Source: Nitrospira sp. (GTDB lineage Bacteria; Nitrospirota; Nitrospiria; Nitrospirales; Nitrospiraceae). Taken from it: 64,000 nt of DNA. Shown piece by piece: positions 13,069 to 51,816 of the stretch. Positions within the stretch are counted from its first letter, which is position 1; every line of letters starts with the position of its first letter. Location of the stretch: assembly GCA_019636875.1 (NCBI GenBank), contig JAHBWR010000007.1:1-64000 (forward strand), written 5' to 3'. Made by a program: the position numbers and the translations under genes. A model generated the notes under the pieces. That model did not search any database. It was not told where the DNA came from and worked only from the letters and a program-made list of their open reading frames with translations.

Positions 13069-13082
13069 GAGCAGGAGGTCGT

Positions 13083-13607
13083 ATGAATCCAGTGATATCC
13101 GGTCTGAAAGCCTTGTGGCGGATATTCGCGCGGTTGTTCAAGCGGCCCGTTACGATCGAATACCCGGATCAGCCTCTGCCCGTGTCCTCACGATGGCGCG
13201 GACGCATCGTGCTGTCCCGTGATCCGGACGGGGAGGAACGTTGTGTCGCGTGCTATCTCTGCTCCGTCGCCTGCCCGGTGGACTGCATCGCGCTTCAAGC
13301 GACGGAGGACGCACATGGTCGCCGGTATCCGGATTGGTTTCGCATCAATTTTTCACGATGCATTTTTTGCGGATATTGCGAAGAGGCGTGTCCGACGTAT
13401 GCGATCCAGCTCGTCCAGGACTTTGAGATGAGCGAGTATCGAAGGACGAGCCTTGTCTATGAAAAAGACGACCTGTTGATCTCCGGAACCGGTAAGTATC
13501 CCGACTACAACTTCTACCGCGTCGCGGGGGTGGCGATCGGCGGGAAAGACAAGGGGGATGCGGAGCGCGAACAACCTCCGGTCGACGTGCGGAGCCTGCT
13601 GCCATGA
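13083..13607 (+). CDS. nuoI: NADH-quinone oxidoreductase subunit I
   Basis: 174 residues from the chosen start. It carries two [4Fe-4S] clusters, N6a and N6b, through [20 protein letters not shown] and [18 protein letters not shown]. Electrons pass from NuoG through it to N2 in NuoB. I chose the ATG at 13083 because AGGAGG (13073-13078) lies directly upstream. An in-frame ATG at 13065, overlapping the nuoH stop, would add six residues and cannot be excluded. It overlaps nuoJ by 4 bases. Confidence 0.95.
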
Positions 13608-14110
13608 TGGATTTCTTTTTTTACGTGGCCGCTTCTGTGGCGATCTCGTCCACTGTCTTGTTCGTCATCGCGCCAAACGCCGTCCATGCGTTGCTCAACC
13701 TGATCCTCTCCTTCCTGGCGATCGCGGTGATATTTCTGCTGTTGGGCGCTCCCTTCGCCGCGGCATTGGAAGTCATCATCTATGCCGGAGCCGTCATGGT
13801 GTTGTTCGTATTCGTGATCATGATGCTCCAGGTCGGTCCGAAATCCGTCGAGCAGGAACGCCGCTGGATAGGGATACGGATTTGGTGGGTCCCAGTCGGA
13901 TTGGCCATGCTTCTGCTCGCGGAAGTCGGGACCTTGATCGCGACCGGGGCGGTGACGGCCGAATCCGGACCTCGTCGAGTCGGCCCCGAGGAGGTCGGTC
14001 TCGTGCTGCTGAGTCGATACCTGTTGGCCGTAGAGCTGGCCTCCCTCCTCCTGCTTCCTGGAATTCTCGGCGCCTACTACCTTGGACGTCGCCGGAGGGA
14101 GGACCCATGA
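13604..14110 (+). CDS. nuoJ: NADH-quinone oxidoreductase subunit J
   Basis: 168-residue membrane subunit with five predicted helices. The third contains the family stretch [19 protein letters not shown], which forms the pi-bulge helix in known structures. It lies between the quinone site and the antiporter-like subunits. ATGA overlaps with both nuoI and nuoK argue for coupled translation. Confidence 0.95.
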
Positions 14111-14415
14111 GCGGCCCGCTGGTGGTTCATGCCGTGATGGTCGCCGGAATCCTCTTTGCCCTCGGCCTAACCGGGCTGCTCGCACGGCGCAATCTGTTGT
14201 TCATGCTGATGTCGGTGGAAGTCATGCTCAACGCCGCCGGTCTCGGGTTTATCGCGGCCGGCGCACGATGGGGAGCGCCTGATGGACAGGTGATGTTTCT
14301 ATTCATCTTGACGCTGGCTGCGGCGGAAGTGCCCGTCGCGCTCGCGCTGGTACTGCAGGTGCATCGCCGATTCCACACCCTGGACGCTGATGCCGTCACC
14401 CTGATGGAGGGATAG
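14107..14415 (+). CDS. nuoK: NADH-quinone oxidoreductase subunit K
   Basis: 102 residues with three transmembrane helices, the normal size. It has the two buried glutamates expected in the proton path: one in [13 protein letters not shown] and one in [14 protein letters not shown] longer open frame extends upstream inside nuoJ, but the ATG at 14107 overlapping the nuoJ stop gives the canonical protein. Confidence 0.95.
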
Positions 14416-14417
14416 TC

Positions 14418-16451: not shown

Positions 16452-18004
16452 TCCTACTCCTATTGATCGCATTCCTGATGCTCGGTGGCCTCATTGCTTG
16501 GGTGTCGGAACGGCTTGGACCACAGTGGCCTCGTTGGATCGCTCTCGGAACGACTGTCGTCAGCCTCTGCACCATCGGGCTCGATACGATCCCTCACCTC
16601 TTCGGGGACGTCGTCCCCTCGTCAAATCCGTGGCTGCGGGAATTTACCGTTCCGTGGATTCCGCGGTTCGGCATCGGCCTTCACCTGGCGATGGACGGTC
16701 TTGGTTTTTTGCTCATCGTCCTAACGCTCACACTCGGGATAGTGGCCGCCATCGCGTCTTGGACGGAAATCACGAGTGGGATCGGATTTTTCCATTTCAA
16801 TCTCCTCTGGGTGTTGGCCGGAATCGCGGGTGTCTTCGTCGCGATGGATCTCTTCCTCTTTTTTGTGTTCTGGGAATTAATGCTGGTCCCGATGTATCTC
16901 CTGATCAGTATTTGGGGTCATGAGCGACGTTCATACGCGGCGACAAAATTCTTTCTCTTCACGCAGGCCGGCGGGCTGCTGATGTTGATCTCCATTCTCG
17001 CACTGTCGATCGTGCATTACCGACAGACCGGTGTTACGACGTTCGATTATGCCGTTCTATTGGGGACTTCGCTCCCACCGGAGACGGAGTTCTGGCTGAT
17101 GTTGGGGTTTTTCGCCGCCTTTGCGGTGAAGCTGCCGGCGGTCCCGTTGCACCCCTGGCTGCCCGACGCCCACACCGAAGCCCCGACCGGCGGCAGCATC
17201 ATCCTGGCCGGGATCTTGCTGAAAACCGGCGCCTACGGGATGTTACGGTTTGCCATCCCGCTCTTTCCGAACGCCTCCGAAACCTTTGCGATCGTGGCCA
17301 TGACGCTGGGCGTGGTGGGAATTTTGTACGGCGCCTTGTTGGCGTTCGCACAGACCGACTTCAAACGGCTTGTGGCCTACAGCAGCGTGACCCACCTCGG
17401 TTTTGTCTTGTTGGGAATCTACGCCGGTACCCTGCACGCAAGGGAGGGAGCGATCATGGCGATGATCGCCCATGGTCTCAGCACGGGAGCGTTGTTCATG
17501 ATCGCCGGCGTTCTGCAAGAACGTCTCCGTACGCGCGACATGCGGCGCATGGGGGGGTTATGGCCGGTCGTACCAAAGTTGAGCGGGGTCACGCTCGTCT
17601 TCTCCATGGCCTCGCTCGGCATCCCGGGATTGGCAAACTTTATCGGCGAGTTCCTCGTCTTGCTGGGCACCTATCGCGTCAATATTCCTCTGGCGGTTCT
17701 GGCGACGATCGGGGTGGTGGGAGCTGCCTTATATTCGTTAATCCTCATTCAGCGGACATTTCACGGAGAGAACACAGAAAACTGGAAGGTGCCTGATCTC
17801 CGCGGAGTGCAGTTTGCCACTCTCGGTTCGATGATTCTCGTGAGCCTGACACTCGGACTCTACCCCCAACCACTTTTGAAGATTTCAAAACCTGCGGTCG
17901 CGCGAATCCAAACCTGGGGGTCTCCCCCCCCCGCACAGGAGACGTCCGCTGTTCCCGAGAAAGACGTTTCAGACCGCGCTACTCCTTCGCCGCCGGATCG
18001 ATAA
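16448..18004 (+). CDS. nuoM: NADH-quinone oxidoreductase subunit M
   Basis: 518 residues of a fourteen-helix antiporter-like proton-pumping subunit. Recognisable stretches are FFVFWELMLVPMYLLISIWG (catalytic glutamate), AFAVKLPAVPLHPWLPDAH (lysine) and YSSVTHLGFVLLG. A longer frame opens upstream inside nuoL. The ATG at 16448, overlapping the nuoL stop as ATGA, gives the usual N-terminus. Only one NuoM is present, so this is not a two-NuoM complex. Confidence 0.95.
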   Translation: MILLLLIAFLMLGGLIAWVSERLGPQWPRWIALGTTVVSLCTIGLDTIPHLFGDVVPSSNPWLREFTVPWIPRFGIGLHLAMDGLGFLLIVLTLTLGIVAAIASWTEITSGIGFFHFNLLWVLAGIAGVFVAMDLFLFFVFWELMLVPMYLLISIWGHERRSYAATKFFLFTQAGGLLMLISILALSIVHYRQTGVTTFDYAVLLGTSLPPETEFWLMLGFFAAFAVKLPAVPLHPWLPDAHTEAPTGGSIILAGILLKTGAYGMLRFAIPLFPNASETFAIVAMTLGVVGILYGALLAFAQTDFKRLVAYSSVTHLGFVLLGIYAGTLHAREGAIMAMIAHGLSTGALFMIAGVLQERLRTRDMRRMGGLWPVVPKLSGVTLVFSMASLGIPGLANFIGEFLVLLGTYRVNIPLAVLATIGVVGAALYSLILIQRTFHGENTENWKVPDLRGVQFATLGSMILVSLTLGLYPQPLLKISKPAVARIQTWGSPPPAQETSAVPEKDVSDRATPSPPDR

Positions 18005-18006
18005 TC

Positions 18007-19461
18007 ATGCCCGTTCACGACATCATCGCGCTGCTACCTGCCCTAATCCTTGCAGGTGGCACGCTCGTCGTCGTGCTGGGAGCTGCCTGGAACTGCTCTC
18101 ACGGCATGGCGAGTCGGACGACCGCGATCTCGCAGGTCTTGGCATTGACCAGCCTCTCGCTCGCTTCGAGCGTGATTCCCCGACCGGTGACTTCCCTGTT
18201 ACTCGTCGACGAATTCACACTCTTCTATACCGCGCTCATTCTCATCGGAGGGCTGGGGGTGAGCCTCCTGTCACAGGGATATCTCGACGGCACGCTGGAC
18301 CGGCACAATGAATACTACGCGCTGATCTTGCTTGCCTCGTTGGGGGGATTGGTGCTGGTGATGTCCGTGCATGGCGCATCATTTTTCTTGGGCCTGGAAC
18401 TACTGAGCGTCTCACTCTATGTCCTACTTGCCTACAGGCGGGACGAGCCGCGCGCGTTGGAAGCCGGAATCAAATATCTGCTCCTATCAGCCGCAGCGTC
18501 TGCCTTCGTTCTGTTCGGTTTCGCCCTCCTCTACTTTTCGAGTGGAGAACTGGCTTTTGCGGCCATGCAGCCGTCCCTCACAAAGGCAGGCCGAACCGTG
18601 TTCCTCGTCGGCCTTGCTCTCATTTTGACCGGCATTGGATTTAAGTTGGCGGTGGTGCCGTTCCATCTGTGGGCGGCAGATGTCTTCCAGGGCTCACCGC
18701 TACCCGTGACCGCATTCATCGCGACGATCTCCAAGATCGCCGTCGTCGGCCTGCTCCTCAGAGCCTTGGTCCATACAGGCGGGAGCGCCGACGAGGCGGT
18801 GATCGCGACCCTCGGGATTTTAGCGGTCGCGTCCATGTTCCTTGGAAACTTGCTGGCGCTGCTCCAAGAGAACGTGAAGCGCCTGTTGGCTTATTCCTCT
18901 ATCGCGCATCTTGGATACCTGCTCGTGGCCGTCGTCGCAGGCGGTGCGCTGGGAGCAGAGGCCGTCGGGTTCTATGTCGCCGCCTACATGGTCACCATGC
19001 TGGGGATATTCGGCGTCCTGATGCTCTTGTCCAGGCCCTCCATGGAGGCAGAACAGGTAGAGGATCTTGCGGGATTGTTATGGCGGGACCCTCTTGTCGG
19101 TGCGATCTGGGTTATCGCTGTCCTGTCCCTCGCGGGTGTGCCGTTGACGGCCGGATTTGTCATCAAGTTCTATGTGGTCGTGGCAGGCCTCTCGAGCGAC
19201 CGATGGCTGCTGGTTCTGTTCTTCGTCGTCAACAGCGTGATCGGGCTCTTCTATTACCTCAAATTGATCCGCATCGTCTTGGTGAGAGAGTCCGGCTCCT
19301 CAGAACGACCGATGCACGCGATGATCCCCAGATGGAACTGGTCCGATGGATTCGTGCTGGCATCACTCATCCTCGCCATCATCGGGTTGGGCGTCTATCC
19401 GATTCCATTCATCGATGTCATCGAACAGGCCGCGGCGGTCTTGCCGATTGGAACAGACTAG
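18007..19461 (+). CDS. nuoN: NADH-quinone oxidoreductase subunit N
   Basis: 484-residue antiporter-like membrane subunit completing complex I. Motifs are FFLGLELLSVSLYVLLAYRR, FKLAVVPFHLWAADVFQGSP and LAYSSIAHLGYLLVA, with the buried Glu and Lys residues in place. It starts 2 bases after the nuoM stop and is the last nuo gene. An 80-base gap follows before transaldolase. Confidence 0.95.
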   Translation: MPVHDIIALLPALILAGGTLVVVLGAAWNCSHGMASRTTAISQVLALTSLSLASSVIPRPVTSLLLVDEFTLFYTALILIGGLGVSLLSQGYLDGTLDRHNEYYALILLASLGGLVLVMSVHGASFFLGLELLSVSLYVLLAYRRDEPRALEAGIKYLLLSAAASAFVLFGFALLYFSSGELAFAAMQPSLTKAGRTVFLVGLALILTGIGFKLAVVPFHLWAADVFQGSPLPVTAFIATISKIAVVGLLLRALVHTGGSADEAVIATLGILAVASMFLGNLLALLQENVKRLLAYSSIAHLGYLLVAVVAGGALGAEAVGFYVAAYMVTMLGIFGVLMLLSRPSMEAEQVEDLAGLLWRDPLVGAIWVIAVLSLAGVPLTAGFVIKFYVVVAGLSSDRWLLVLFFVVNSVIGLFYYLKLIRIVLVRESGSSERPMHAMIPRWNWSDGFVLASLILAIIGLGVYPIPFIDVIEQAAAVLPIGTD

Positions 19462-38746: not shown

Positions 38747-39892
38747 TCAGGGTTCGCGATAGGAGATTCGATAGATTGCGCCGGCCATATCATCGGAGAC
38801 CAGCAGCGCACCATCCGGCATGACCATGACGTCAACAGGGCGCCCCCATGCCCGTTGGCCTTGAAGCCAGCCCTCAGCAAAGACGGAATATCGCATGTGC
38901 CCTTGCCCATCTCGTGACACCATCGTGATTCGATACCCGCTTTTTTCACTCCGGTTCCAAGAACCGTGTTCGGCAATAACAATTTGATTTCGATATTCCT
39001 TGGGGAACATGTCACCGGTGTAAAAGCGCATGCCCAGAGACGCGACATGAGGTCCAAGCTCGGCGGCAGGCGCCGTAAATTCTCGGCAGGCACGTGTGCG
39101 TCCGTACTCAGGATCCGAGAGGTTGTTCCCATGGCAATAGGGATAGCCGAAGTGGAGTCCTGGCTTCTCCGCATGATTGAGCTCGTCCGGGGGTTGATTG
39201 TCACCGAGATAATCCCGTCCATTTTCCGTAAACCATAACTCATGGGTGGTCGGGTCCCAGTCGAAGCCGACCGAGTTCCGGACTCCGCGCGCGACAATCT
39301 CATATCCACTCCCGTCAGGATTGAGGCGACCGATGAGGGCATACCGATCGGGATCGGGCTCGCAAATATTGCAGGGTGCACCCACCGGTACATACAATTT
39401 TCCATCGGGACCGAACGCGATAAACTTCCATCCATGACTGGTCTCTTTCGGGAAGCCGTCCGTAACGACCACCGGTGGTGGCACATCCTTCAAGTGGGCG
39501 TCGATCTTGTCGAATCGCAGGATGCGATCTACGGCAGACACGTACAGCGACCCTTTTCGATAGGCGACCCCGACCGGCATCTGCAGCCCGCGAGCAATCG
39601 TCAGCACTTCATCGGCACGCTGATCGCCATCTTTGTCCAACACCGCATAGACATCGCCCTTGTCCCTTGTGCCGACAAAGAGAACACCGTCTTGTCCCAA
39701 TGCCATACCACGTGCATTCGGAACCTTGTCTGTGTAGAGGGCGATGGTAAACCCAGGGGGAAGTTTGATCGTATCGAGAGAAAGCCTCCCGGCTTCGATC
39801 CGGCTCCCGAAGACGAACAGGGTCAACAAGGCACAGACCAGCCCGACCGTGCGATTCAGGACCATGCTTCGTCTCACGCGGCAGGTATTCAT
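38747..39892 (-). CDS. PQQ-dependent sugar dehydrogenase (soluble GDH/aldose dehydrogenase family)
   Basis: 381 residues with a signal peptide (VGLVCALLTLFVFGSRIEAG), so periplasmic. The six-bladed propeller family is recognised from LPPGFTIALYTDKVPNARGMAL, the blade with HGWKFIAFGPDGKLYVPVGAP, RGVRNSVGFDWDP and HGSWNRSEKSGYR. These enzymes oxidise aldoses to lactones with PQQ. It lies 45 bases after pqqE on the same strand, so cofactor and enzyme are probably co-expressed. The ATG at 39892 follows GAGGAAG. Confidence 0.88.
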   Translation of the reverse strand: MNTCRVRRSMVLNRTVGLVCALLTLFVFGSRIEAGRLSLDTIKLPPGFTIALYTDKVPNARGMALGQDGVLFVGTRDKGDVYAVLDKDGDQRADEVLTIARGLQMPVGVAYRKGSLYVSAVDRILRFDKIDAHLKDVPPPVVVTDGFPKETSHGWKFIAFGPDGKLYVPVGAPCNICEPDPDRYALIGRLNPDGSGYEIVARGVRNSVGFDWDPTTHELWFTENGRDYLGDNQPPDELNHAEKPGLHFGYPYCHGNNLSDPEYGRTRACREFTAPAAELGPHVASLGMRFYTGDMFPKEYRNQIVIAEHGSWNRSEKSGYRITMVSRDGQGHMRYSVFAEGWLQGQRAWGRPVDVMVMPDGALLVSDDMAGAIYRISYREP

Positions 39893-39937
39893 GATGACTT
39901 CCTCCTCAATGGATGAAAGATCCACACGCTCACGGCC

Positions 39938-41041
39938 TCATCGTGAAGAATGCCCTAGACCGGTCCGATGCTCGAACAGGACCGGAATGCTGACTGAGCG
40001 ACCGGCCTGAGCTCTCGCCGACTCAATGACGTGATGACCGGGAGCCAGTGTGCAGGCGGGATCGGGCAGACCGGCATCTCCCATGAGGTGAAACGCTTGG
40101 CAGCGACAGCCTCCAAAATCTATGGCCCGGCGGTCACAAGTGCGGCAAGGGTCCGGCAGCCATTCTTCCCCCCGAAATCGGTTGAATCCCGAGGAACGGC
40201 GCCAGATGTCCGCGAGCCGGTGCTGCGTGACCCGTTCGAACTGCAACCCTGGAATCGTATGTGCCAGATGGCAGGGCAACGCGAGTCCCTCCGGGTTGAC
40301 CACGATGAACCGGCGTCCCCATCCTTCCATGCAGGACTTTGGGTATTCCGTATAGTAGTCTGGCGTGACGAAGACGACCTCCATTCTTCCACGCAGGCGC
40401 GTTTTCGCCTCAGCTGCAACGGTTCGTGCCCACTTGATGTGCTCCCGAGTGGGCAGGAGTGCATGGCGATTCTTTAATGCCCATCCCAGGTACTGCGTAT
40501 TCGCCAACTCAAGTCGATCGGCGGCGACATGTTCAGCCAGCGCGATGAACTCTTCGATCTCGGCAATATTTTCCCGATGCAGGACGACGTTCAGCGTCAA
40601 TGGAAGTCTGAGCGACGTCGCCCACCGCATGGCGTCGAGCTTGCGGTTGAACGCTGGCGTTCCAGCGAGACGGTCCGAAACGGCCCCCCTCGTACTTTGA
40701 ATGGAGATCTGCACGCTATCCAATCCCCTTTCACGAAGTCGGGTGAGCCGTTCGAATGTGAGCGGAACTCCGCTCGTGATAAGGTTCGTATAGAGATCGA
40801 GCCTACGGGCCCGTTCGACCAGGAGTTCCAAATCATCTCGCAACAGGGGCTCGCCGCCGGTGAGGTTGAGTTGAATCACCCCAAGTTCTTCGGCTTCTTG
40901 GAAGACCCGAATCCACGTGTCGGTATCGATTTCCTTCCCATACTCCGCAAGATCTGACGGATTCGAACAATAGGGGCAGTGAAGCGGACACCGATAGGTG
41001 AGTTCGGCAATCAACGTATAGGGGCGATACTTGTTGTTCAT
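39938..41041 (-). CDS. pqqE: PqqA peptide cyclase (radical SAM)
   Basis: 367 residues. Radical-SAM cluster motif C18-x3-C22-x2-C25 (TYRCPLHCPYCSN), then GGEPLLRDDL. The C-terminal SPASM-type cysteines are present in KSCMEGWGRRF, LPCHLAH, DPCRTCDRR and FGGCRCQAF. It forms the Glu-Tyr carbon-carbon bond in the PqqA peptide, the first step of PQQ synthesis, with PqqD presenting the peptide. ATGA overlap with pqqD. Confidence 0.95.
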   Translation of the reverse strand: MNNKYRPYTLIAELTYRCPLHCPYCSNPSDLAEYGKEIDTDTWIRVFQEAEELGVIQLNLTGGEPLLRDDLELLVERARRLDLYTNLITSGVPLTFERLTRLRERGLDSVQISIQSTRGAVSDRLAGTPAFNRKLDAMRWATSLRLPLTLNVVLHRENIAEIEEFIALAEHVAADRLELANTQYLGWALKNRHALLPTREHIKWARTVAAEAKTRLRGRMEVVFVTPDYYTEYPKSCMEGWGRRFIVVNPEGLALPCHLAHTIPGLQFERVTQHRLADIWRRSSGFNRFRGEEWLPDPCRTCDRRAIDFGGCRCQAFHLMGDAGLPDPACTLAPGHHVIESARAQAGRSVSIPVLFEHRTGLGHSSR

Positions 41042-41319
41042 GCCGCACCTTGAAGCAGGCCACGATCAGCAAGAATAGCCAGAAATTCTCGCACCGCTCG
41101 ACTGATTTCACCTCGCGACACGTCACCATAAGATCGGATGAGATGATCGACGATCTCATCGATCGTCCATTCACCCGTACAAAGACGCACAATCGCCGTG
41201 GCGGTCTCGTTCAGTTCGAGTCCGGTTTCAGGGTACAACAAGAGGTAGCGGTCGGTCCGCCGATCGAAGCGAAGGCGAACCTTTTCACTAAGCCGAGGCC
41301 TGACGGTGGCGTAATTCAT
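41038..41319 (-). CDS. pqqD: PqqA-binding chaperone
   Basis: 93 residues from the ATG at 41319 (MNYATVRPRLSEKVRLRFDR). The family pattern YPETGLELNETATAIVRLC and a C-terminal LAILADRGLL are clear. PqqD binds the PqqA leader and delivers it to PqqE. Its start overlaps the pqqC end by 32 bases, an unusually long overlap. No later in-frame ATG exists. Confidence 0.93.
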   Translation of the reverse strand: MNYATVRPRLSEKVRLRFDRRTDRYLLLYPETGLELNETATAIVRLCTGEWTIDEIVDHLIRSYGDVSRGEISRAVREFLAILADRGLLQGAA

Positions 41320-42055
41320 CACTGTTCTGTTTGCCTTCTGATCCCATTTCACCAGAGGCCAGAGAGAGGTGATCGAGCAGGGTCCACAAGATGTCTGCTT
41401 TCTTGATCAAGGCCCTCACGCACCTCTCTTGAAGCGCATAGGTGGTCGCGTGCTGCACCACGAATTCGACGGCCTGAACGGAATCGAGCGTTGCACGAGC
41501 GATGCGCAATTGAAAATACTCCAGGGACTCCGACCGAACCCAAGGATAATGTTGTTTCCACGCCTCGAGGCGCCTCGCCATCAGGGAAGGAGCAAACAAT
41601 TCCGTGAGCGAAGAGGCCACGGCTTCGAGAAGCGGAACGGCACGGACGAACCGAACATAGTCGTCACACGCGAGCTTGACTCCAGGAAGCACGTCTCGAT
41701 AGCTCTTCACGGCTTCGACGTCGAGCCCCACGCCTCGCGCTAATTCAAGCCATAGCGCGAGTCCGCCTTCCCCTTCCTGCCCACCGTCCTGATCCCGAAT
41801 GCGACGAAGCCACATCCGTCGAAATATCGGGTCCTCGGATTTTGCGACGATGCACGCATCTTTGATAGGAATTCGCGTTTGATAGTAATAGCGGTTCAAC
41901 ACCCACTGCTGAAGCTGTACCTTCGTCAACTGTCCGTTATGCATCCGTTGATGGAACGGATGGTGGTCATGGTAGCGACACGCGCCCTCCTGCTTGAGCC
42001 ATTCGATGAAGGCTTCCTTTGCGAGCCGATCCGGAGGGAGCGCTTCCTTTATCAT
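41288..42055 (-). CDS. pqqC: Pyrroloquinoline-quinone synthase
   Basis: 255 residues. Cofactorless oxidase that carries out the last ring-closing oxidation of PQQ synthesis. Family stretches: YHDHHPFHQRMHNGQLTKVQ, WVLNRYYYQTRIPIKDA, DGGQEGEGGLALWLELARG and YFQLRIARATLDS. The start codon overlaps the pqqB stop by one base (TGATG). Confidence 0.95.
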   Translation of the reverse strand: MIKEALPPDRLAKEAFIEWLKQEGACRYHDHHPFHQRMHNGQLTKVQLQQWVLNRYYYQTRIPIKDACIVAKSEDPIFRRMWLRRIRDQDGGQEGEGGLALWLELARGVGLDVEAVKSYRDVLPGVKLACDDYVRFVRAVPLLEAVASSLTELFAPSLMARRLEAWKQHYPWVRSESLEYFQLRIARATLDSVQAVEFVVQHATTYALQERCVRALIKKADILWTLLDHLSLASGEMGSEGKQNSDELRHRQASA

Positions 42056-42978
42056 CACACGAGGATTCCCATTCCGTCCCACGCGACTTCCCATCCAGCC
42101 GCATCGACGAGTGTCCGTTCAGGAGAATCTACCCTCAGCATGGGATTGGTGTTGTTGATGTGAATGAACACCCGGCGACGAGCCGTGATCTGCGAAAGCA
42201 TCGCCAAGCTTCCGTGCGATCCACTGACAGGCCAGTGCGCGAGGTCTTCCGCTGACTTCCCGAGGAATCCAGGTGCGGATAACTCATCACTCGACCAAAA
42301 CGTACCGTCAAACATGATGCAATCGGCGTCTTCGAGCGCATTGAGCACCGAGGAAGTGATCCGGCCGACGGCCGGAAAATAGGCGAACACTCCCCCATCA
42401 TCCGATTGTCGAAATCGAAGTCCCACATTTACATCCGGTTCCCCCGGTGACACGAGTCCTTCCAAATGGATGGGAAGTTTTCCCGGAACGGCCACCGCCA
42501 TGACCGACAGCCCTGACGGTCTTCCATCCGCGAGCAAGAGTGGTTCTTCAACATCGAGCTTCAGCGTCCGCCAGGTGACCTGTTCGGCAAACCGTTGGAG
42601 TGTCCGATACAAGACATTACCTTCGGTAAATCCTCGACGCACCGAGTCCGTCGTATAGATGACCAGCCGATGGTTCTCTCGGAGCGTGAGGAGCCCCAAA
42701 CAGTGGTCCAGATCTCCGTTTGTCAACACAATTGCTTGGATGGGGGAAGAGCGTGATTGAGGAGGATGAAGGGACACACAACTCTCGATCTGAGCACGAA
42801 TATCCGGAGAAGCGTTGATGAGAAACCAGTCACTAGCTCCCGCGCTGAGGCCGACGGATTCCTCCATCCGTGTGATGGCAGCAATGCGTCCCTTACGTAC
42901 ACCCGCACAATTGACACAGGCGCAGTTCCACTGTGGAAAGCCACCTCCGGCAGCTGACCCTAGGACCCGGATGACCAT
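42055..42978 (-). CDS. pqqB: PQQ biosynthesis protein B
   Basis: 307 residues, metallo-beta-lactamase fold. It starts MVIRVLGSAAGGGFPQWNC, with CVNC and the metal-site string LTNGDLDHCLGLL; toward the end are HGSLAMLS and VFIHINNTNP. PqqB hydroxylates the Glu-Tyr precursor in recent models. It overlaps pqqA by one base. Confidence 0.94.
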   Translation of the reverse strand: MVIRVLGSAAGGGFPQWNCACVNCAGVRKGRIAAITRMEESVGLSAGASDWFLINASPDIRAQIESCVSLHPPQSRSSPIQAIVLTNGDLDHCLGLLTLRENHRLVIYTTDSVRRGFTEGNVLYRTLQRFAEQVTWRTLKLDVEEPLLLADGRPSGLSVMAVAVPGKLPIHLEGLVSPGEPDVNVGLRFRQSDDGGVFAYFPAVGRITSSVLNALEDADCIMFDGTFWSSDELSAPGFLGKSAEDLAHWPVSGSHGSLAMLSQITARRRVFIHINNTNPMLRVDSPERTLVDAAGWEVAWDGMGILV

Positions 42979-43349: not shown

Positions 43350-44672
43350 CTACGGGCAGGGGTTGCAACCTTCATAGGTCCGACGTTCATCAGACAGCTC
43401 CATCACCCCATAAACCAGGTACCCGTTGTACGCGCGAGCCGTTTCCCGCACCCACCCCATCGTCAACATTACCACCATGGTACAGCCGGCGATCACGATA
43501 AGAATCCGCTGGTTCGCGCGATCCTGACCGTTCACAGGCTCAGCGGTCGATCTGGATCCAAGACCGATGAAGGCACGCAGGAAGAGGATCCAATTCAGCA
43601 GACCGAAGAACACGAGCGCGGCAATCGCGATATATTTATTCGGCTGCATTTTGCCGAGCGGATTGATCTCGATGTCGGTCAGTTGGGACAGTCCGGGAAT
43701 ATGGTGCAGATGGTACGGCATCGCGAAGACAAGCCAGGCGATGACGAGTACCACCACGCTCACCGGAAGGATCAAGCGCGCGGTGTCGTCGGGCTTGCCG
43801 GTCGAAGCGATGACCCGGAGAATATACAAGGACCCAAGCACGGCGATCAGTCCATAGAACAGGGCGACCAGATCGAATAGCCAGGAGCGGCCGCCGAGCA
43901 TGAGCGTGTGAAACGCCTGCGGTTCGGCATACCGCACATGGAGCAGGTATTGATAGCCGATCACCGGCATGACCAACAGCGCCCCAAAACCCACGGCGAA
44001 ACAGAACCCACCGGCCCAGCGATAAAAAAGACGGTCTTCCTCGACTCGTGCAAACAGGAAAGCCGTACCGCACCAGGCCGCCAGGGCAAATCCGGCCCAT
44101 GTCAGGTTTCCAAACCACCGATGAAGATCGAGATCGATCATGGTCGGATTCAAGATATTGGCCCACGAGGAGTCGGGAGGATGTGGCGTCAACATATAGG
44201 AGGCGGTGATATCGATAAAAAACATCGCCACCACTGCGCAGACGGCTGCGAGCCACGCGAACGCCAGATGCACACCTCTGCGCCAGTCTGGAGTGGACGA
44301 CCAGCTCCATAGGTAGTACCAGGCATAGGCAAAGACGGCTTCTCCAAAGAATAAACAGGCCTCCAGCACGAACGGCCAGAACATGATCCGAAAAATCTGG
44401 TGCCAAAACCGAGGCCAGAACATGTTGAGCGCGAACACCAGCGATACCCCAAAAAATGAGATCGTGGCGGTGCTCAACACCAAGGCGAACGCGATCATGT
44501 GCGCCAGCCGTCGATAGCGAGACTGACCTGTCACGTGGGCCAGTGTCGCGACCACCGCACCGATGACCGCGCAGCCGACAACCAACGTGGCGAACAAACT
44601 ATGGCTCAGCGCTGCCGCCGCGATCGCGCCACGACCGTACATCATCGGCATATGAAGCGGTTCAAGGTCCAT
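43350..44672 (-). CDS. Cytochrome bd-like membrane subunit, CydA-like with conserved Glu pair
   Basis: 440 residues, about ten transmembrane helices. By position and local pattern it resembles CydA: H24 in ALSHSLFATL (like the heme b595 ligand), E104 and E111 in FVLEACLFFGEAVFAYAW (like the Glu pair near the active site), and H184 in DLDLHRWFGNLTW (like the heme b558 ligand). The C-terminus ends GCNPCP. The long quinol-binding Q-loop of CydA is not evident. It is the last gene of the respiratory operon, 14 bases after the other bd-like gene. The electron donor and whether it reduces O2 are unknown. Confidence 0.8.
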   Translation of the reverse strand: MDLEPLHMPMMYGRGAIAAAALSHSLFATLVVGCAVIGAVVATLAHVTGQSRYRRLAHMIAFALVLSTATISFFGVSLVFALNMFWPRFWHQIFRIMFWPFVLEACLFFGEAVFAYAWYYLWSWSSTPDWRRGVHLAFAWLAAVCAVVAMFFIDITASYMLTPHPPDSSWANILNPTMIDLDLHRWFGNLTWAGFALAAWCGTAFLFARVEEDRLFYRWAGGFCFAVGFGALLVMPVIGYQYLLHVRYAEPQAFHTLMLGGRSWLFDLVALFYGLIAVLGSLYILRVIASTGKPDDTARLILPVSVVVLVIAWLVFAMPYHLHHIPGLSQLTDIEINPLGKMQPNKYIAIAALVFFGLLNWILFLRAFIGLGSRSTAEPVNGQDRANQRILIVIAGCTMVVMLTMGWVRETARAYNGYLVYGVMELSDERRTYEGCNPCP

Positions 44673-44686
44673 CGCAGTCCTTGAAG

Positions 44687-45907
44687 TTACGGTTGAGGGC
44701 CAGACAGAGGTCGGTCCATGATTGATTGCCTCGCCTCGTCCGGAATAGAAATCACATGGCGTATCGTATCCGGACGGCGCGCGGTCTCCCGGATGACACC
44801 CATCGTGAGGTACGTCAGCACCGCAACAACGGCCAGGGCTGCCGAGAGGTGTCGAATGAGCGGTCTCCGGTACCGGTCAGGCGACGAGACGTCCCTAAAC
44901 AAGCCGCGGGCTCGGTACAGCACCACGGCGCTCAGCGTCACGAGCGCGAAGGTCCAGACGCGTCGGAGGTCCGGATAGCCGACGGACAGCACCATGGCGA
45001 GTACGAATGAGCCGGCTGCGACCACGCTCCACCACTTCGCCATCCCCGTCGATACGACAGTATGAAGCCAGAGATGACTGCCGAGGAATAATGCGCCGAT
45101 TAGGACAAATTGAGCATAGATCCAGGGCTGGTAGGCCCCCTGTATGAGTTGTCGATAGGCTTCCGGTGCTGATGCGCTGATTGCCTGCGCATAAAACAAT
45201 CCGCTCAGCGGTTGAATCATCAGGACGATGAATCCGATCAACAGCCCCATCTTCAACAGACGCACATAGTACTCGGCGTCGTCCCCTTGTGCGGCGGCAA
45301 GCCGCCACGCGGAATACCCGGCCAGCACATATCCGGCCATGACGAGATTGCCCAAAAAGCGATGTGCGATCAGAGGAACCCACGTTGGATTCGCAAGGCG
45401 GCTCCATGCATCGCCGGCCGACACCGGAGTGAGCATAGAGGACCCGATTCCATCGAGTACGGCGACCCAGATGAGCATCAGCAAGGCCGCGAGGACTCCG
45501 AGCATCCGATGGAGACGCGGGCTCCTCGCGCGCAAGGGATCCCAATAATGGTAGTAGGGATAGAGCGCGAAGAGCTGCACGAGAAAGGCGATCATCGCGA
45601 CATAGATCGGGTAGCGAAAGCGGTTGAACAGGTACGCGTTTGTCAGGGGGAACAGCCCGATGAGCAGTTGCACCATGAGGACCGCCAACACCAAGCTCGC
45701 CGTATAGGTCACGATCGTAAATCGCGTCATCGATCGGGCGGCATCGAGCAGCCACGGACGGCGTTCTCCCGCCCACTCAGCAGGCGGCGCGAGCATCAAG
45801 AAACCGACTCCCAAACCAGCGAGCAGGATATGCAGAAGCGCGAACAGGCCTACCACGAGACTGTTTCCGATCAGCGGGAATTCGATGGCAGGCAGGGTCG
45901 GCATCAT
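44687..45907 (-). CDS. Cytochrome bd-like membrane subunit lacking the Glu pair
   Basis: 406 residues, about ten transmembrane helices. It is related to the gene downstream. H26 (LFALLHILLAG) and H182 (LIAHRFLGNLVMAGYVLAGY) match the bd heme-ligand positions. The helix that carries two glutamates in the partner reads YPIYVAMIAFLVQLFALYPY here, without them. It therefore looks like a heme-binding but probably non-catalytic partner (inference). It begins 28 bases after the DUF3341-cytochrome c gene on the same strand. Confidence 0.78.
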   Translation of the reverse strand: MMPTLPAIEFPLIGNSLVVGLFALLHILLAGLGVGFLMLAPPAEWAGERRPWLLDAARSMTRFTIVTYTASLVLAVLMVQLLIGLFPLTNAYLFNRFRYPIYVAMIAFLVQLFALYPYYHYWDPLRARSPRLHRMLGVLAALLMLIWVAVLDGIGSSMLTPVSAGDAWSRLANPTWVPLIAHRFLGNLVMAGYVLAGYSAWRLAAAQGDDAEYYVRLLKMGLLIGFIVLMIQPLSGLFYAQAISASAPEAYRQLIQGAYQPWIYAQFVLIGALFLGSHLWLHTVVSTGMAKWWSVVAAGSFVLAMVLSVGYPDLRRVWTFALVTLSAVVLYRARGLFRDVSSPDRYRRPLIRHLSAALAVVAVLTYLTMGVIRETARRPDTIRHVISIPDEARQSIMDRPLSGPQP

Positions 45908-45935: not shown

Positions 45936-46955
45936 TCAGGGTTGAGACAAGGATTTGACGTAGGTCACCACGGAGTGCCGCTCCTCAGCGGACAGTTCGC
46001 CTTGAAAAGCCGGCATCACATCCCTCCCCTCAACCGCCAAACCATAGGTCACCGTATCGTAGAGTGCCGCTTCGGATAATCCTTGTACATACGGATCGCG
46101 AAGATCCGCCGGTTGCTCCTTCAAATAGGCGACGACCGGACCGTTGCCCGTCCCGTCCCGTCCGTGGCAATGAGAACAGTTGATACGAAAGAGTCTGGCC
46201 CCTTCATCGAGCTCCTCTTGAGTCGTGAGAGACTTGCGCAGCAACCGGCTGTCGCGCGGCACCGAGCCTTTCGGCGAATGGATCCGCGGGGCTTCCTGCG
46301 ACTGATAGGACGATTGATCTTGCATGTCTCGTGAACAGGCCGGCACGCCACACAAGAGCCAGGCCACGACGAGCATGCCGGCGGTCGTCCGTCTGTCTAG
46401 CTCCACGCCAGGTGGAATCGATGACGTGGCATGGTGATGGCGGATCTCAAGCGCCCCGGCCTGTTTCAGCAGCGTTTGGACCAGCTGCAGTTGCACCGAA
46501 TTCGACGGGAGAGACAGAACCACCTCAATGAGGCCATCATCGATGCGCGGATCGCGCTCGACGGCATCCCGGCGTTCCGATCGAAGCCGGATAAGCATCG
46601 TGACGAACGTGGTGACGATCGCCATCAGCATCATCGTTTCAAAGGAGATAATCCCCACGACCGGAGGGGCCACGATCGGTTTTCCTCCCGTCATGATGGG
46701 ATACAGAATCGCCGTCCCTCCGGCGACCACCACCCCGAGGACGAGGCCGACCAGACCAGCTATGATCGCAATACGATGCAACGGGAGAGGTGCGGGACGC
46801 ACCAAGCCCGTCTCATGAAGCGGCAGCGGCGAACGGATTTCCATCGCGCCCTCCGGCACACCGGCTTGTCGGAGTTTCTCGACAAGCGACTCCGGATAAC
46901 CGGACGGCTCAAAGAGCGCCCGCACCGTTATCTCATGTTCCGTGACGGGTCCCAT
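45936..46955 (-). CDS. Fused ActD (DUF3341)-ActE (cytochrome c) subunit of alternative complex III-like enzyme
   Basis: 339 residues. The N-terminal ~150 residues match the DUF3341 ActD subunit (ALFEPSGYPESLVEKLRQAG; two helices at about 65-87 and 95-122). After a second hydrophobic or lipoprotein-like segment (VVAWLLCGVPAC) comes a mono-heme cytochrome c domain with CSHCHGRDG and the distal region DVMPAFQGELSAEE with an axial Met. In characterised complexes ActD and ActE are separate proteins. The gene start overlaps the NrfD-like gene by 23 bases. It should be membrane-bound with the heme on the outer side. Confidence 0.85.
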   Translation of the reverse strand: MGPVTEHEITVRALFEPSGYPESLVEKLRQAGVPEGAMEIRSPLPLHETGLVRPAPLPLHRIAIIAGLVGLVLGVVVAGGTAILYPIMTGGKPIVAPPVVGIISFETMMLMAIVTTFVTMLIRLRSERRDAVERDPRIDDGLIEVVLSLPSNSVQLQLVQTLLKQAGALEIRHHHATSSIPPGVELDRRTTAGMLVVAWLLCGVPACSRDMQDQSSYQSQEAPRIHSPKGSVPRDSRLLRKSLTTQEELDEGARLFRINCSHCHGRDGTGNGPVVAYLKEQPADLRDPYVQGLSEAALYDTVTYGLAVEGRDVMPAFQGELSAEERHSVVTYVKSLSQP

Positions 46956-48270
46956 GGACGAGGCCTTCCTTTTCTTCCCAGATGGAAATCACCGGGACAA
47001 ACTTGACGGCCAGAGCATAGAGCAGGACCGCCAACGCCAACGATCCCACGATGATGGTCATTTCCACCCAAGACGGGAAGTAGCTTCCCCAATTGAACGG
47101 CAGTCGGGGATAGGTCAATGGCGGCACGAGGATCAGGACACGCTCGATATACATTCCGATGTTGATAAAGACACCGACGAGCATGACGCCCAACGGCCAC
47201 CGGCGAAAGGCCGGGTTCGTCAACGTCGCGAGCGGGATGAAGTAGATACAGATCGCCATGAACCAAAAGGGAACGGCAAACGGACCGATCAGAAGAGCAT
47301 CCACCACCCACATGTGATCCGGACTCTTCGCGTACCAAATGGTGAGCAGTTCAGCGAAATACAGATAGGCGAGAACAAGTGTCGTCACGACCAATAACTT
47401 GCCGATTTTGTCGAAATGCTCCGACTCAATATAGCGCTCGAGACGATAGATCTTCCGAAGCACATATAACCCGATCGCCACCAATCCTACGCCGGAATGC
47501 ACCGCACCGACGACGAAGTAGGGCGCGAAGATCGTGGAGTGCCACGCGGGAACCAGCGACACGCCGAAATCCCATCCGACGATCGAATGGACGGACACCA
47601 TCACCATCACGATCAACGGTGTAATGATCCGCAGAGCCGTTTCAAGGACCTGCCATTGGTTCTGTGTGCCGGTCCATCCGAGGGAGAGCACGCGGTACAA
47701 CGGTTTCCGCCAACCGCCGATCCGTTCACGCAACAACGCAAAGTCGGGGATCAACGGCAGATACAGATAGATGGTGCTGGCGGTCGCATAGGTAAAGACG
47801 GCGATGGCATCCCACATCAGCGGTGATCGAAAATTCGGCCATAGTTCCCGCTGATTGGGATACGGCATCAGGTAATACCACCGCCAGACGCGCCCCAGAT
47901 GGAAGAACACGAACAAGGTAGCGATCATCAACGAAATGAACGTCATCAATTCAGCGATTCGCGTGACAGGCCTTCTCCACTCCGCCTTGCTCAGACGCAG
48001 CACACCCGAGATGAACGTGCCGGAATGGCTCGCGCCGACCCAAAAGATGAACGACGCGATATAGACACCCCAGAAGATCGGCGGATGCAAATTCGTCTGC
48101 CCGATCCCCGTGTCGACTTGGTAATACCAGGCCCCCGCACCCAGAGCCACGATTGCTCCAAGGACGATCAACAACAAGAAATAGGCGGGGGTCGCACTCT
48201 GCAACGGAGCGAGCAGATCTCGATTGATGCTCGACATCTTCTTCCATGCAGTTCGGTCGTCGGCCGTCAC
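46933..48270 (-). CDS. NrfD/PsrC-like quinone-interacting membrane subunit (ActC-like)
   Basis: 445 residues with about ten transmembrane helices and the ActC pattern: GVYIASFIFWVGASHSGTFIS, WRRPVTRIAELMTFISLM, SIVGWDFGVSLVPAWHSTIF and FNWGSYFPSWVEM. In alternative complex III this subunit binds quinol and passes electrons to the FeS subunit. It overlaps the FeS gene start by 4 bases. The N-terminus is cytoplasmic and hydrophilic. Confidence 0.9.
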   Translation of the reverse strand: MTADDRTAWKKMSSINRDLLAPLQSATPAYFLLLIVLGAIVALGAGAWYYQVDTGIGQTNLHPPIFWGVYIASFIFWVGASHSGTFISGVLRLSKAEWRRPVTRIAELMTFISLMIATLFVFFHLGRVWRWYYLMPYPNQRELWPNFRSPLMWDAIAVFTYATASTIYLYLPLIPDFALLRERIGGWRKPLYRVLSLGWTGTQNQWQVLETALRIITPLIVMVMVSVHSIVGWDFGVSLVPAWHSTIFAPYFVVGAVHSGVGLVAIGLYVLRKIYRLERYIESEHFDKIGKLLVVTTLVLAYLYFAELLTIWYAKSPDHMWVVDALLIGPFAVPFWFMAICIYFIPLATLTNPAFRRWPLGVMLVGVFINIGMYIERVLILVPPLTYPRLPFNWGSYFPSWVEMTIIVGSLALAVLLYALAVKFVPVISIWEEKEGLVHGTRHGT

Positions 48271-48974
48271 GCGATTCTCTTCAGGTAGGTGATCGCTGGG
48301 TGCGTACCCTGTGATTCGAGCAGATGGAAGGCTCGGTCTTGACGCGCCAATTGCGAAACCCGGCTTTCGGGATCATGGCGGTCACCGAATACCAAAGCGG
48401 AGGTCGGACAGGTCTGCACGCAGGCCGGTATGATATCGCCGTCACGGACGGGCCGCCCTTCCTTTTCCGCCTGTTCCTTGCCTGCCCGAATGCGTTGCAC
48501 ACAAAAGGTGCATTTCTCCATGATCCCGTTTTGCCGAACCGTCACGTCTGGATTGAGCTGTTCCTCGAGGGGAGGATCCCAGTGTGGGTCGAACCAATTG
48601 AATTGTCGTGCAGTATAGGGACAGTTGTTGCCGCAGTAGCGGACACCGATGCACCGATTGTAGACTTGGGCGTTCAATCCTTCCGGTGTGTGGTAGGAAG
48701 CATACACCGGACAGACTGGTTCACAGGGCGCGTCATCACAATGCTGACACAGCACCGGCATGAATCGAGTTTGCACATTCGGATACTCCCCTTCCCAATA
48801 CCGCTCAATCCGGATCCAATTGATTGCCCGACCCTCCGATGCTTCGTCTTCACCTGAAATGCGGATGTTGTTTTCCGCATGGCACGCGACGACACAGGCT
48901 TCGCACCCCGTACACCGATCGAGATCGATGACCATCTCCCACTTATGGGATTTCGTCTTATTGGTATCAGCCAT
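48267..48974 (-). CDS. Four-cluster FeS subunit (ActB2-like)
   Basis: 235 residues. Four cluster motifs: CTGCEACVVACHAEN, CQHCDDAPCEPVCPVYA, CIGVRYCGNNCPYTARQFNW, and CTFCVQRI with CVQTCPTSAL. In the third motif the second cysteine is replaced by Val, leaving three ligands, as expected for the [3Fe-4S] cluster next to the quinone site in ActB. In known alternative complex III this domain is fused to the molybdopterin-like domain; here it is a separate gene 75 bases downstream of it. Confidence 0.92.
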   Translation of the reverse strand: MADTNKTKSHKWEMVIDLDRCTGCEACVVACHAENNIRISGEDEASEGRAINWIRIERYWEGEYPNVQTRFMPVLCQHCDDAPCEPVCPVYASYHTPEGLNAQVYNRCIGVRYCGNNCPYTARQFNWFDPHWDPPLEEQLNPDVTVRQNGIMEKCTFCVQRIRAGKEQAEKEGRPVRDGDIIPACVQTCPTSALVFGDRHDPESRVSQLARQDRAFHLLESQGTHPAITYLKRIA

Positions 48975-49049: not shown

Positions 49050-51230
49050 TCACCGCCGATCGATCGCGATTAAATCACTCGGTTCCATGGTAGGCCGTTC
49101 GAGTGTCGCCAGCCGTCTCTTCTCTCCGGTACGTTCGATACGAACCCTGGTGGCGCCTGCCGCCAAAGTCCCGGTCATGCTATCAAGAGCCGGCGCCAGC
49201 AATTCGGCTGGGTTCACCCCGCGGTTCTTGGCGTATCGACCATAGCTGGCATGGCCCTGTCCGAGCGGCATGGCGACCACATCGGGATGAATACCTGGAA
49301 AAAGAACTGTCGACGCGGTCAACGTTCCAAATGGCGAGATCACCCGCACGACATCGCCGTGAGTGATACCTAGATCCTTCGCGGTCCTCGGATTGACTTC
49401 CACCCAAGAGCCCCACACCACCGTCGTCAAGGTGTCGGGCAATTCCTGGAGCCATGGCCTGTTGGCCCCCTCACCATGGCCAAGTGCCATCGAGGCGTAA
49501 GGATGAAGAACAAAGGGATAGTCAGGTTCTTCGCCGACAAAGCGTGCTTGTTCGAATGCACGTGAGGGCGCGAAGTTCACCGGGCCTGCAGCTTGGCTCG
49601 GCTCCCTCCACAGCCCACCCTGTTGCAGAAGCTCGATCCACTCAGGCTCAAACCAATCGGCGGTCTGGGTATGCGGTTGATCGGCAAGAACGGTTTTCCA
49701 TCGCCCGCGTAACAGGTCGTAGAAGGTCTTGGATTGACCATGGCCGAGGTTCAACCGACGACTCAGCTCAAGAATCGTGTCGCCGATCTGCTGCGTCTCA
49801 TATAACGGTGTCACGACCGGCTGGGACAAACCCATGGTCTGTGCAGGGTTCTCAACGACATGATCACCCCATGACTCCAGCGCGTCTCGATCCGGCAGCA
49901 GGAGATCGGCATACTCTGACGTTTCATCAAGAAATGAACTGAAACTGACGACGAACGACGCCTGTTCAAACAACGTTTTGATCGGCACGGCCCGCGGCAT
50001 TGTGAAGAGCGGATTACAGCCATACAAGAGCAGGACTGGACCAGCACCAGCATCCTGTTTCTCCGCCAATTCGAACATCATCTGTTCGGTCAACCACGGG
50101 ATTGAACGGTCATCACGAGCTTCGTCGTGACACCAACCTTGCGCTATGGGTGCTCGGCCCAGATGATGGGCCAATGCATTCAAGCCGTTGATCGAGATCA
50201 ACGAGAGCGTACCGTTCGTTTGCGAACAGGCCGAGCCACCTCCGATGGCGACCGGAGCTCGTGCGGCATCGAAGTCCTGTGCCAAACGAACGATCACCTC
50301 GCGTGAAAGGCCTGTGACGTGTTCGACTTCATCCAGTCGAACAGAACCATAGAACCTGTGGAACCGTTCAAATTCCTGTCCGTGTGCCGTCGATCGATGG
50401 GCATCAAGAATGAGCTGTCCGATACCAAGAGCCAGCATCCCTTCCGAGCCTGGTCGAATCGGAAGCCATTGATCGGCGTTCGCGGCGGTCACCGACATCC
50501 TTGGCTCAATATGGACGTACCGGCCACGTACCGTTGCACGCCCCTGTCGCATCTGACCGAAGGCGATGCCCATCGCGACCGGAGACAGCCAGTGTTCGAG
50601 AAACGGGGCCCCGAAGGACAGCAGATAATCCGCGTGGGCCAGATCATAGACCGGCGCTCCGTCCCCTCCCATGCTCTCACGCCATGCGGCATGTAACGGC
50701 AATTCCGCGTCCGGTGCATAAAAATAGAGCGTGCCCCCCATCGAATCCATAAATTCGGACAACAATCGGGCAAGAGTTCCGGACACCGGCCTTGTCACCA
50801 TCATCGGTGGCACGCGTCCGTCCCGAAGAACCTGCGCCAACCTCTGCAACCCTTCTTCCCATTTGAGTGGGACAAACGTGCCTGCTCCTCGAGGACCTTC
50901 CCGTTGAAATGGGTGCCGAAGCCGATCCGGGTTATAGAGACTTTGGAGCGAGGCCTGCCCTTTTGCGCACAGTTTCCCATGATTCACCGGATGGTCCGGA
51001 TTACCCTCGATCTTCTTGGCTCGTCCTTCCATCACGCGTACGAGAATGCCGCATCCGGCAGCACATTCTCCGCACACGGACGCGTACCAATTCGCCACCC
51101 CTGGCACGATCTGATCATCCGGGAGGAGATAGGGAACAAGCCGGTCAACTTCCTTCTTGCAACCGGGAATGATGGATCCGGCCGTCGCCGCACCGGCCAA
51201 CTTGAACAATGTGCGTCGTCCTACATTCAT
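49050..51230 (-). CDS. Molybdopterin-oxidoreductase-like subunit (ActB1-like)
   Basis: 726 residues. A twin-arginine-like N-terminus (GRRTLFKLAGAATAG) suggests Tat export. A [4Fe-4S] motif C-x2-C-x3-C (VCGECAAGCGILVRV) with a later cysteine in GKLCAKGQ follows, then the MopB domains (GVNPAELLAP region at the C-terminus). In structures of alternative complex III the equivalent domain has lost its cofactors. Whether this protein binds Mo cannot be decided from sequence. It lies between the pentaheme and FeS genes. Confidence 0.88.
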   Translation of the reverse strand: MNVGRRTLFKLAGAATAGSIIPGCKKEVDRLVPYLLPDDQIVPGVANWYASVCGECAAGCGILVRVMEGRAKKIEGNPDHPVNHGKLCAKGQASLQSLYNPDRLRHPFQREGPRGAGTFVPLKWEEGLQRLAQVLRDGRVPPMMVTRPVSGTLARLLSEFMDSMGGTLYFYAPDAELPLHAAWRESMGGDGAPVYDLAHADYLLSFGAPFLEHWLSPVAMGIAFGQMRQGRATVRGRYVHIEPRMSVTAANADQWLPIRPGSEGMLALGIGQLILDAHRSTAHGQEFERFHRFYGSVRLDEVEHVTGLSREVIVRLAQDFDAARAPVAIGGGSACSQTNGTLSLISINGLNALAHHLGRAPIAQGWCHDEARDDRSIPWLTEQMMFELAEKQDAGAGPVLLLYGCNPLFTMPRAVPIKTLFEQASFVVSFSSFLDETSEYADLLLPDRDALESWGDHVVENPAQTMGLSQPVVTPLYETQQIGDTILELSRRLNLGHGQSKTFYDLLRGRWKTVLADQPHTQTADWFEPEWIELLQQGGLWREPSQAAGPVNFAPSRAFEQARFVGEEPDYPFVLHPYASMALGHGEGANRPWLQELPDTLTTVVWGSWVEVNPRTAKDLGITHGDVVRVISPFGTLTASTVLFPGIHPDVVAMPLGQGHASYGRYAKNRGVNPAELLAPALDSMTGTLAAGATRVRIERTGEKRRLATLERPTMEPSDLIAIDRR

Positions 51231-51279: not shown

Positions 51280-51816
51280 TCAGTGATGACAGGTCAGACA
51301 GTCGAGCGATCCCCCTTCCCGACGGTGGCACGAGAGGCACCATCCCATCTCGAAGGTCGCGGCCCTCGGCGTATGCGGCATGTCTTCCACTCGCCCATGA
51401 CAGTGGATACATTCCATCCCATGATGGAGATGCATCTCGTGCGTGAAATAGACAAAATCCGGAAGGCGTTGGAGTCGGACCCACTGAATCGGCGTCTCCT
51501 GTTCCCAATACACCCGAAGCTTCTTCGTTTCCGATGTGTCTTCCTTGAGGTTCTGATGGCATCCCATGCAGAGCTGCATGGACGGCACACTGGCAACGCG
51601 GGATATGGTTGCATAGCGATGGCAAAACAGGCAGGACACCTCCAATTGACCAGCATGAAGTTTGTGGCTGAACGCGACTGGTTGGATGTCCTGTTCTGAA
51701 CTGTCAGCTGAGCCACTGGCATATAAGAATCCGACAACGAGCGCGCCTCCACCGACGGCAAGTACGATGAATACCGCCTTACCTATGGAACTACGCGCTA
51801 GGGATGTGGATCTCAT
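51280..51816 (-). CDS. Membrane-anchored pentaheme cytochrome c (ActA-like)
   Basis: 178 residues. One N-terminal transmembrane anchor (AVFIVLAVGGGALVVGFLYA), then five CxxCH sites: CLFCH, CMGCH, CIHCH, CLSCH and CLTCH. Histidine-rich strings (FSHKLHAG, FTHEMHLHHG) provide distal ligands. This matches ActA, the periplasmic pentaheme subunit. It is the first gene of the operon. The final CLTCHH is at the very C-terminus. Confidence 0.9.
   Translation of the reverse strand: MRSTSLARSSIGKAVFIVLAVGGGALVVGFLYASGSADSSEQDIQPVAFSHKLHAGQLEVSCLFCHRYATISRVASVPSMQLCMGCHQNLKEDTSETKKLRVYWEQETPIQWVRLQRLPDFVYFTHEMHLHHGMECIHCHGRVEDMPHTPRAATFEMGWCLSCHRREGGSLDCLTCHH

Follow-up and report, generated by a model that had tools for sequence, protein, structure and literature searches.

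An ActF-less ACIII operon of Nitrospira sp. ending in an asymmetric CydA'-CydA gene pair

Archaeal CydAA' of the Caldivirga type is a quinol-oxidizing heterodimer of CydA and CydA', and the OR-N classification reportedly goes back to Murali, Gennis and Hemp in 2021. Enzymes of the bd type have been described as pseudo-symmetric CydA-CydB heterodimers (PMC4602095). For 47 Nitrospirales genomes, a 2025 paper describes ACIII modules (actABCDE) with a split ActB and without ActF or ActG, nearly all of which are followed immediately by an OR-N5 CydAA' (PMC12342949). A full-text literature search for "OR-N5" returned that paper only, beyond an unrelated match; its accessible portions hold no residue-level asymmetry of CydAA', which Murali et al. 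may give. Bd-like proteins of Nitrospinota and Nitrospira have been treated as putative, probably cytochrome c-oxidizing terminal oxidases (PMC10839748, PMC8115632, PMC10579370), and one of these papers states that experimental confirmation is lacking for bd-like oxidases.

Here, we report the analysis of a CydA'-CydA gene pair of Nitrospira sp., located on a stretch of 64,000 nucleotides (the window; GenBank assembly GCA_019636875.1, contig JAHBWR010000007.1, positions 1 to 64,000). We put the probability at roughly 75% that the pair is an OR-N5-type CydAA' oxygen reductase ending an ActF-less ACIII operon, in which ACIII feeds CydA and CydA' is a degenerate partner. The gene-pair type is already described in Nitrospirales, and a catalytic subunit with a degenerate one is the field's current reading; added here are the fixation of the asymmetry across the sampled clade, the presence of the E445 position in both subunits and of the quinol site in neither, and the location of the pair where ActF is missing.

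Sampling, distribution and models

The 440-amino-acid CydA was used as the query. Matches at E ≤ 1e-126, taken as close, turned up in 21 of 235 Nitrospirales genomes. Among 295 genomes drawn from across the phylum, there were 12 matches at E ≤ 1e-30, of which 10 were close (one of them new, G368) and 2 distant. Twenty loci were fetched, which together with the window gave 21 CydA and 20 CydA' sequences, because one contig (G233) ends before CydA'. A partial match near a contig end (G065) was left out of the counts, and the two distant matches (G379 and G400; E ~1e-31, Tyr at the E99 position) were counted as other bd-like proteins, not as OR-N5. The residue alignment had 59 rows (the window pair, the pairs from 20 further genomes, other bd-like proteins and E. 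coli K-12 CydA). Single chains were modeled with AlphaFold2 from six-sequence alignments, and CydA' was assigned to the CydA family from Pfam, alignment and fold comparison.

The operon was found in 7 of the 37 genera of Nitrospirales, as well as in one other family of the class. A contig scan with two peptide patterns returned two loci (Nitrospira sp. ACE_NIT12 and Nitrospirales bacterium NPIRA01), a count that says little about range since the patterns are narrow, and a search of a plasmid collection for copies of the pair gave no match. Across the phylum, ACIII is uncommon, with the ActD family present in 9 of 148 genomes, 5 of which had the bd-like pair. Three ActD stretches with no bd-like gene (L083, L084 and L085) had an ActF-like gene after ActE, and a fourth (L086) had neither an ActF-like nor a bd-like gene.

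An ActF-less operon and its neighborhood

The operon runs ActA, ActB1, ActB2, ActC, ActD-ActE, CydA', CydA (Table 1), the pair being its last two genes, with 14 bases between the two open reading frames. The same order, ending in CydA'-CydA, was found in 18 of the 20 fetched loci, some of them broken off at a contig end before ActA; the contigs of the other two were too short to reach any act gene. CydA' lay immediately before CydA wherever both were visible (20/20, window included). The window and these 18 loci thus have the OR-N5 gene order, two CydA paralogues downstream of actA-B1-B2-C-D-E with no ActF, and it is from this gene context that the pair takes its subfamily name. The locus resembles the published OR-N5 CydAA' of Nitrospirales in this order, in the split ActB, in lacking ActF and ActG and in belonging to the same bacterial order, and nothing in the accessible portions of that paper sets the window locus apart (PMC12342949).

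Table 1. Operon genes and key codons of the two bd-like subunits, in window coordinates
Feature	Position	Strand	Remark
ActA, pentaheme cytochrome c	51280..51816	-	five CxxCH
ActB1, molybdopterin-enzyme-like	49050..51230	-	four Cys of N-terminal 4Fe-4S site kept
ActB2, iron-sulfur subunit	48267..48974	-	15 conserved Cys, as expected for one 3Fe-4S and three 4Fe-4S clusters
ActC, NrfD-like	46933..48270	-	quinone-site residues H124, S149, D154, D234
ActD-ActE fusion, one CxxCH	45936..46955	-	PF11821 80.4 bits, Cytochrome_CBB3 48.1 bits; lipobox-like Cys207 at junction
CydA' subunit, 406 aa, degenerate paralogue	44687..45907	-	H26, H182, E374, R377 kept; Glu pair replaced by A104, Q111
Codon A104 of CydA' (E99 position)	45596..45598	-	
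Codon Q111 of CydA' (E107 position)	45575..45577	-	
CydA-like subunit, 440 aa	43350..44672	-	H24, E104, E111, E410, R413 form the complete E. coli-type oxygen-site set, plus H184; quinol-site positions lost
Codon E104 of CydA (E. coli E99 position)	44361..44363	-	Glu in 21/21 CydA
Codon E111 of CydA (E. coli E107 position)	44340..44342	-	Glu in 21/21 CydA
Codon M342 of CydA	43647..43649	-	invariant in CydA and other aligned Nitrospirota bd-like proteins; missing from CydA'
Codon E410 of CydA (E. coli E445 position)	43443..43445	-	Glu in both subunits

Motifs and profiles identified the expected ACIII parts, namely a pentaheme ActA, the ActB clusters, an ActC with a quinone site, ActD and a monoheme ActE. 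The four quinone-site residues reported for the ActC of R. marinus (PMC8076601) were all present in 19 of 19 ActC rows. ActF was found neither in the operon nor in any of the seven pair-bearing genomes checked (7/7), where the ActF query returned ActC alone and ActC was the only NrfD-like protein above the cut-off; two ACIII control genomes did show ActF in the same check. We therefore name the operon an ACIII-type module without ActF. It shares ActA, ActB, ActC, ActD, ActE and the ActC quinone site with ACIII that has ActF (solved structures and L083 to L085) and differs in having CydA'-CydA after ActE instead.

An ActD-ActE fusion was seen in the window and 8 of the fetched loci, against 9 loci with two separate genes. 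The lipobox-like Cys ahead of ActE was conserved in 18 of 18 rows, fused or separate, so signal peptidase II may cut the fusion into ActD and a lipoprotein ActE. The four Cys of the ActB1 4Fe-4S site (C53, C56, C60 and C88) were kept in 17 of 17 rows, whereas the aligned ActB chains of R. marinus and Chloroflexus ACIII lack them; in modules of the present type, ActB1 may hold an additional cluster.

A PQQ cluster adjoins the operon (window 38747-42978), with PqqB (352.4 bits; cut-off, 245) and a glucose/sorbosone dehydrogenase-like protein, and the open reading frames after PqqB are presumably PqqC, PqqD and PqqE. In one fetched locus (G003), the genes after CydA differ from this cluster. Farther off, the window has a NuoG-like protein (9365-12118) before three adjacent antiporter-like proteins (14418-19461; Proton_antipo_M), one of which has a chain-5 N-terminus. 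A complex I with a doubled M subunit has been described for Nitrospira (PMC8115632), and the genes at 9365-19461 perhaps encode such a complex.

Fold and site residues of the two subunits

Both proteins scored above the curated Pfam cut-off of 26.2 bits for Cyt_bd_oxida_I (PF01654; CydA, 59.0 bits; CydA', 33.3 bits), and pairwise they were 26% identical over 294 columns. A PDB sequence search with the 406-amino-acid CydA' gave no match at E ≤ 10. Model confidence was a mean pLDDT of 69.4 (pTM, 0.76) for CydA and of 76.4 (pTM, 0.79) for CydA', and both predicted chains had the two four-helix bundles of the CydA fold. The best PDB matches of both models were CydA chains of bd enzymes (CydA model, Z 20.5-24.6, 308-325 residues, root mean square deviation [rmsd] 3.7-4.5; CydA' model, Z 27.6-31.0, 308-321 residues, rmsd 3.0-3.3), and Foldseek ranked CydA above CydB for the CydA' model. 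With CydA chains as the best match, we ruled out that the subunits are CydB-like or unrelated membrane proteins. The partner of CydA in canonical CydAB is CydB; here, the neighbor is a CydA paralogue linked to ACIII, and the operon has no CydB gene. Besides this pair, the source genome of the window encodes a further bd-like pair as well as a canonical CydA (470.9 bits).

The second-best structural matches were ActF chains of ACIII (Z 17.7-19.0 for CydA and 19.1-19.8 for CydA'; 282-290 residues), followed by PsrC (Z 15.3 and 16.6, respectively), with the remaining rows at 9.8 or below. None of the 7 genomes checked has an ActF at any locus, the pair fills the slot after ActE and the models resemble ActF chains, so CydA'-CydA might stand in the structural place of ActF. 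CydA' would then dock on ActC/ActD and pass electrons from ActA/ActE to CydA, and complex III and terminal oxidase would be a single obligatory quinol:oxygen machine with a bd oxidase in place of a heme-copper one. We regard this arrangement as possible, if doubtful. A fold shared by CydA and the NrfD-like PsrC was published in 2015 (PMC4602095), so the likeness to ActF is not special to the CydA/CydA' pair.

The preliminary description of this locus, made from the letters of the DNA, had placed His at CydA heme-ligand positions in both proteins and a Glu pair in the 440-residue protein only. Both points are borne out by the 59-row alignment, in which H24, E104, E111 and H184 of CydA align with H19, E99, E107 and H186 of E. 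coli CydA, and H26 and H182 of CydA' with H19 and H186. E104 and E111 sit in the right helix, since a separate pairwise alignment also set them opposite the two helix-3 Glu residues in CydA chains from Geobacillus and C. glutamicum; their spacing is 7 residues, as in Geobacillus CydA (8 in E. coli). In CydA', the E99 column held Ala (14/20) or Gly (6/20) and the E107 column Gln (16/20), Met (3/20) or Leu (1/20), and neither Asp nor Glu occurred anywhere in the helix segment of the Glu pair (0/20). The loss of the Glu pair in CydA' is thus fixed across the sampled clade, which settles the question of fixation that the preliminary description had left to an alignment of homologues.

The E445 position, which the preliminary description did not mention, was Glu in both subunits (CydA E410, 21/21; CydA' E374, 20/20); E445 is a heme b595 ligand in E. 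coli (PMC6853902; PMC8585947 on bd-II). All equivalents of H19, E99, E107, H186, E445 and R448 were present in 21 of 21 CydA. CydA' kept H26, H182, E374 and the R448-like R377 in 20 of 20 and lacked the E99 and E107 residues in 20 of 20. As judged from these aligned residues, CydA is the only subunit of the pair with the full oxygen site (H19/E99/E107/E445), and CydA' has lost the Glu pair, yet not every heme-ligand position. Since residues like H19, H186, E445 and R448 are kept, "non-catalytic" need not mean "without heme."

The kept residues of CydA', together with invariant residues of its own (e.g., H120, R98 and E44), could also be read as a second catalytic site in which different residues substitute for the Glu pair, making the asymmetry only apparent. 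With no acidic residue in the helix in any of the 20 CydA', Ser or His at the R9 position and the M342 segment missing from all 20, we consider this very improbable and keep to one catalytic CydA with a degenerate CydA'.

K252 and E257 we take to be the quinol-site residues of E. coli CydA. Their positions held Ala/Val and Met in CydA and various other residues in CydA', and R391 was kept in neither subunit. Both subunits therefore lack the quinol site of canonical quinol-oxidizing bd (qOR, CydAB), and electrons need another source. Neither this loss nor the ACIII genes, which bear on the electron supply of the pair, figured in the preliminary description. Window CydA thus shares with E. coli CydAB the oxygen-site and heme-ligand positions and the two four-helix bundles, and differs in lacking K252/E257 and M393/R391. 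In E. coli, M393 is the second axial heme b558 ligand (PMC6853902). At its position, all 21 CydA had Leu, and CydA' had varied residues, with Met in 1/20; the change to Leu in CydA counts against our main reading, in that it makes the way by which electrons would reach the active site less certain. An invariant Met (M342) with a Lys 3 or 4 residues on occurred in CydA and in each of the 16 other Nitrospirota bd-like rows, and the segment with M342 was deleted in 20 of 20 CydA'. As a guess, M342 is a candidate substitute axial ligand opposite H184.

Other bd-like pairs of Nitrospirota (P1/P2 and Q1/Q2, probably the OR-N1 and OR-N2 pairs of the literature) resemble the window pair in being paired genes, in lacking the quinol site, in keeping H19 and H186 and in sharing the M342 and K346 positions. 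They differ in having Tyr at E99 and Glu at E107 in 14 of 14 rows, both partners alike, and Ser at the E445 position in 13 rows, the 14th being a truncated open reading frame. Among the pairs in the alignment, the OR-N5 pair is the only one with the canonical set in one subunit and the Glu pair dropped in the other. A distant bd-like gene in another family of the phylum (L070 in G379, 4891-6402) also had Tyr at E99 and Glu at the E107 position; it adjoins genes for a two-heme cytochrome c, a molybdoenzyme-like protein and an iron-sulfur protein.

Rather than ending on oxygen, the pair could be a module that shuttles electrons between cytochrome c and the quinone pool, possibly with ACIII running backwards and making quinol in a nitrite oxidizer. 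Reverse electron transport has been raised for other bd-like proteins of nitrite oxidizers that have no quinol site (PMC3578206), and the top NCBIfam score of ActB1 was for QrcB, a subunit of the menaquinone-reducing Qrc complex, at 331.8 bits and so short of the cut-off of 440. ActC, however, matched solved ActC chains at 254-284 bits, and all 21 CydA, unlike the other aligned bd-like proteins, have the E99, E107 and E445 residues together, which is hard to explain without oxygen reduction. We find such a module unlikely, and oxygen reduction by CydA the better account.

In the tree, CydA (21 rows) and CydA' (20 rows) each formed one clade (SH-aLRT, 99 and 100, respectively). The stem branch was 1.98 changes per column for CydA' versus 0.98 for CydA, in a tree that carried a long-branch warning, and CydA' was less identical than CydA in 177 of 190 genome pairs (mean, 50.5% versus 59.8%). 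As to a single duplication, holding CydA and CydA' together cost 0.81 log-likelihood units (p-AU, 0.475), holding CydA and other OR-N together cost 0.64 (p-AU, 0.477), and the grouping of CydA' with other OR-N had a support of 53. The divergence and long stem of CydA' would also suit an absence of any CydA/CydA' heterodimer, with CydA forming a homodimer or joining another subunit and CydA' acting elsewhere, for example in anchoring or assembly. This we think quite unlikely, given that CydA' stands directly before CydA at all 20 loci with both visible, that the operon offers no CydB gene and that bd enzymes are described as heterodimers of pseudo-symmetric partners (PMC4602095). The catalytic CydA with degenerate CydA' proposed in the preliminary description is supported by a Glu pair that one clade invariably has and the other lacks, by two single clades of which CydA' is the more diverged, and by models that are both closest to bd CydA.

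Proposed working and meaning

In our main reading, ACIII and the pair would form one joint complex. Quinol would be oxidized at ActC, on the outer membrane face, and its electrons would be relayed by the ActB2 iron-sulfur clusters to the ActA hemes and monoheme ActE, and from ActA/ActE to CydA. With hemes bound at the kept ligand positions, the H24/E104/E111/E410 site of CydA would reduce oxygen to water. CydA' would be the structural partner of CydA, in the role of canonical CydB, and may have retained at least one heme.

The locus offers a clean natural case of asymmetry in a bd-type pair, with an oxygen site that sequence assigns to one predicted subunit, in a bacterial group whose other bd-like pairs have changed the site alike in both partners. 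If the pair works with ACIII, these bacteria would have a unit of complex III and oxidase in which the oxidase is of the bd type, and it would follow that ActF can be replaced. Being compact and conserved, the operon is a reasonable target for structure work.
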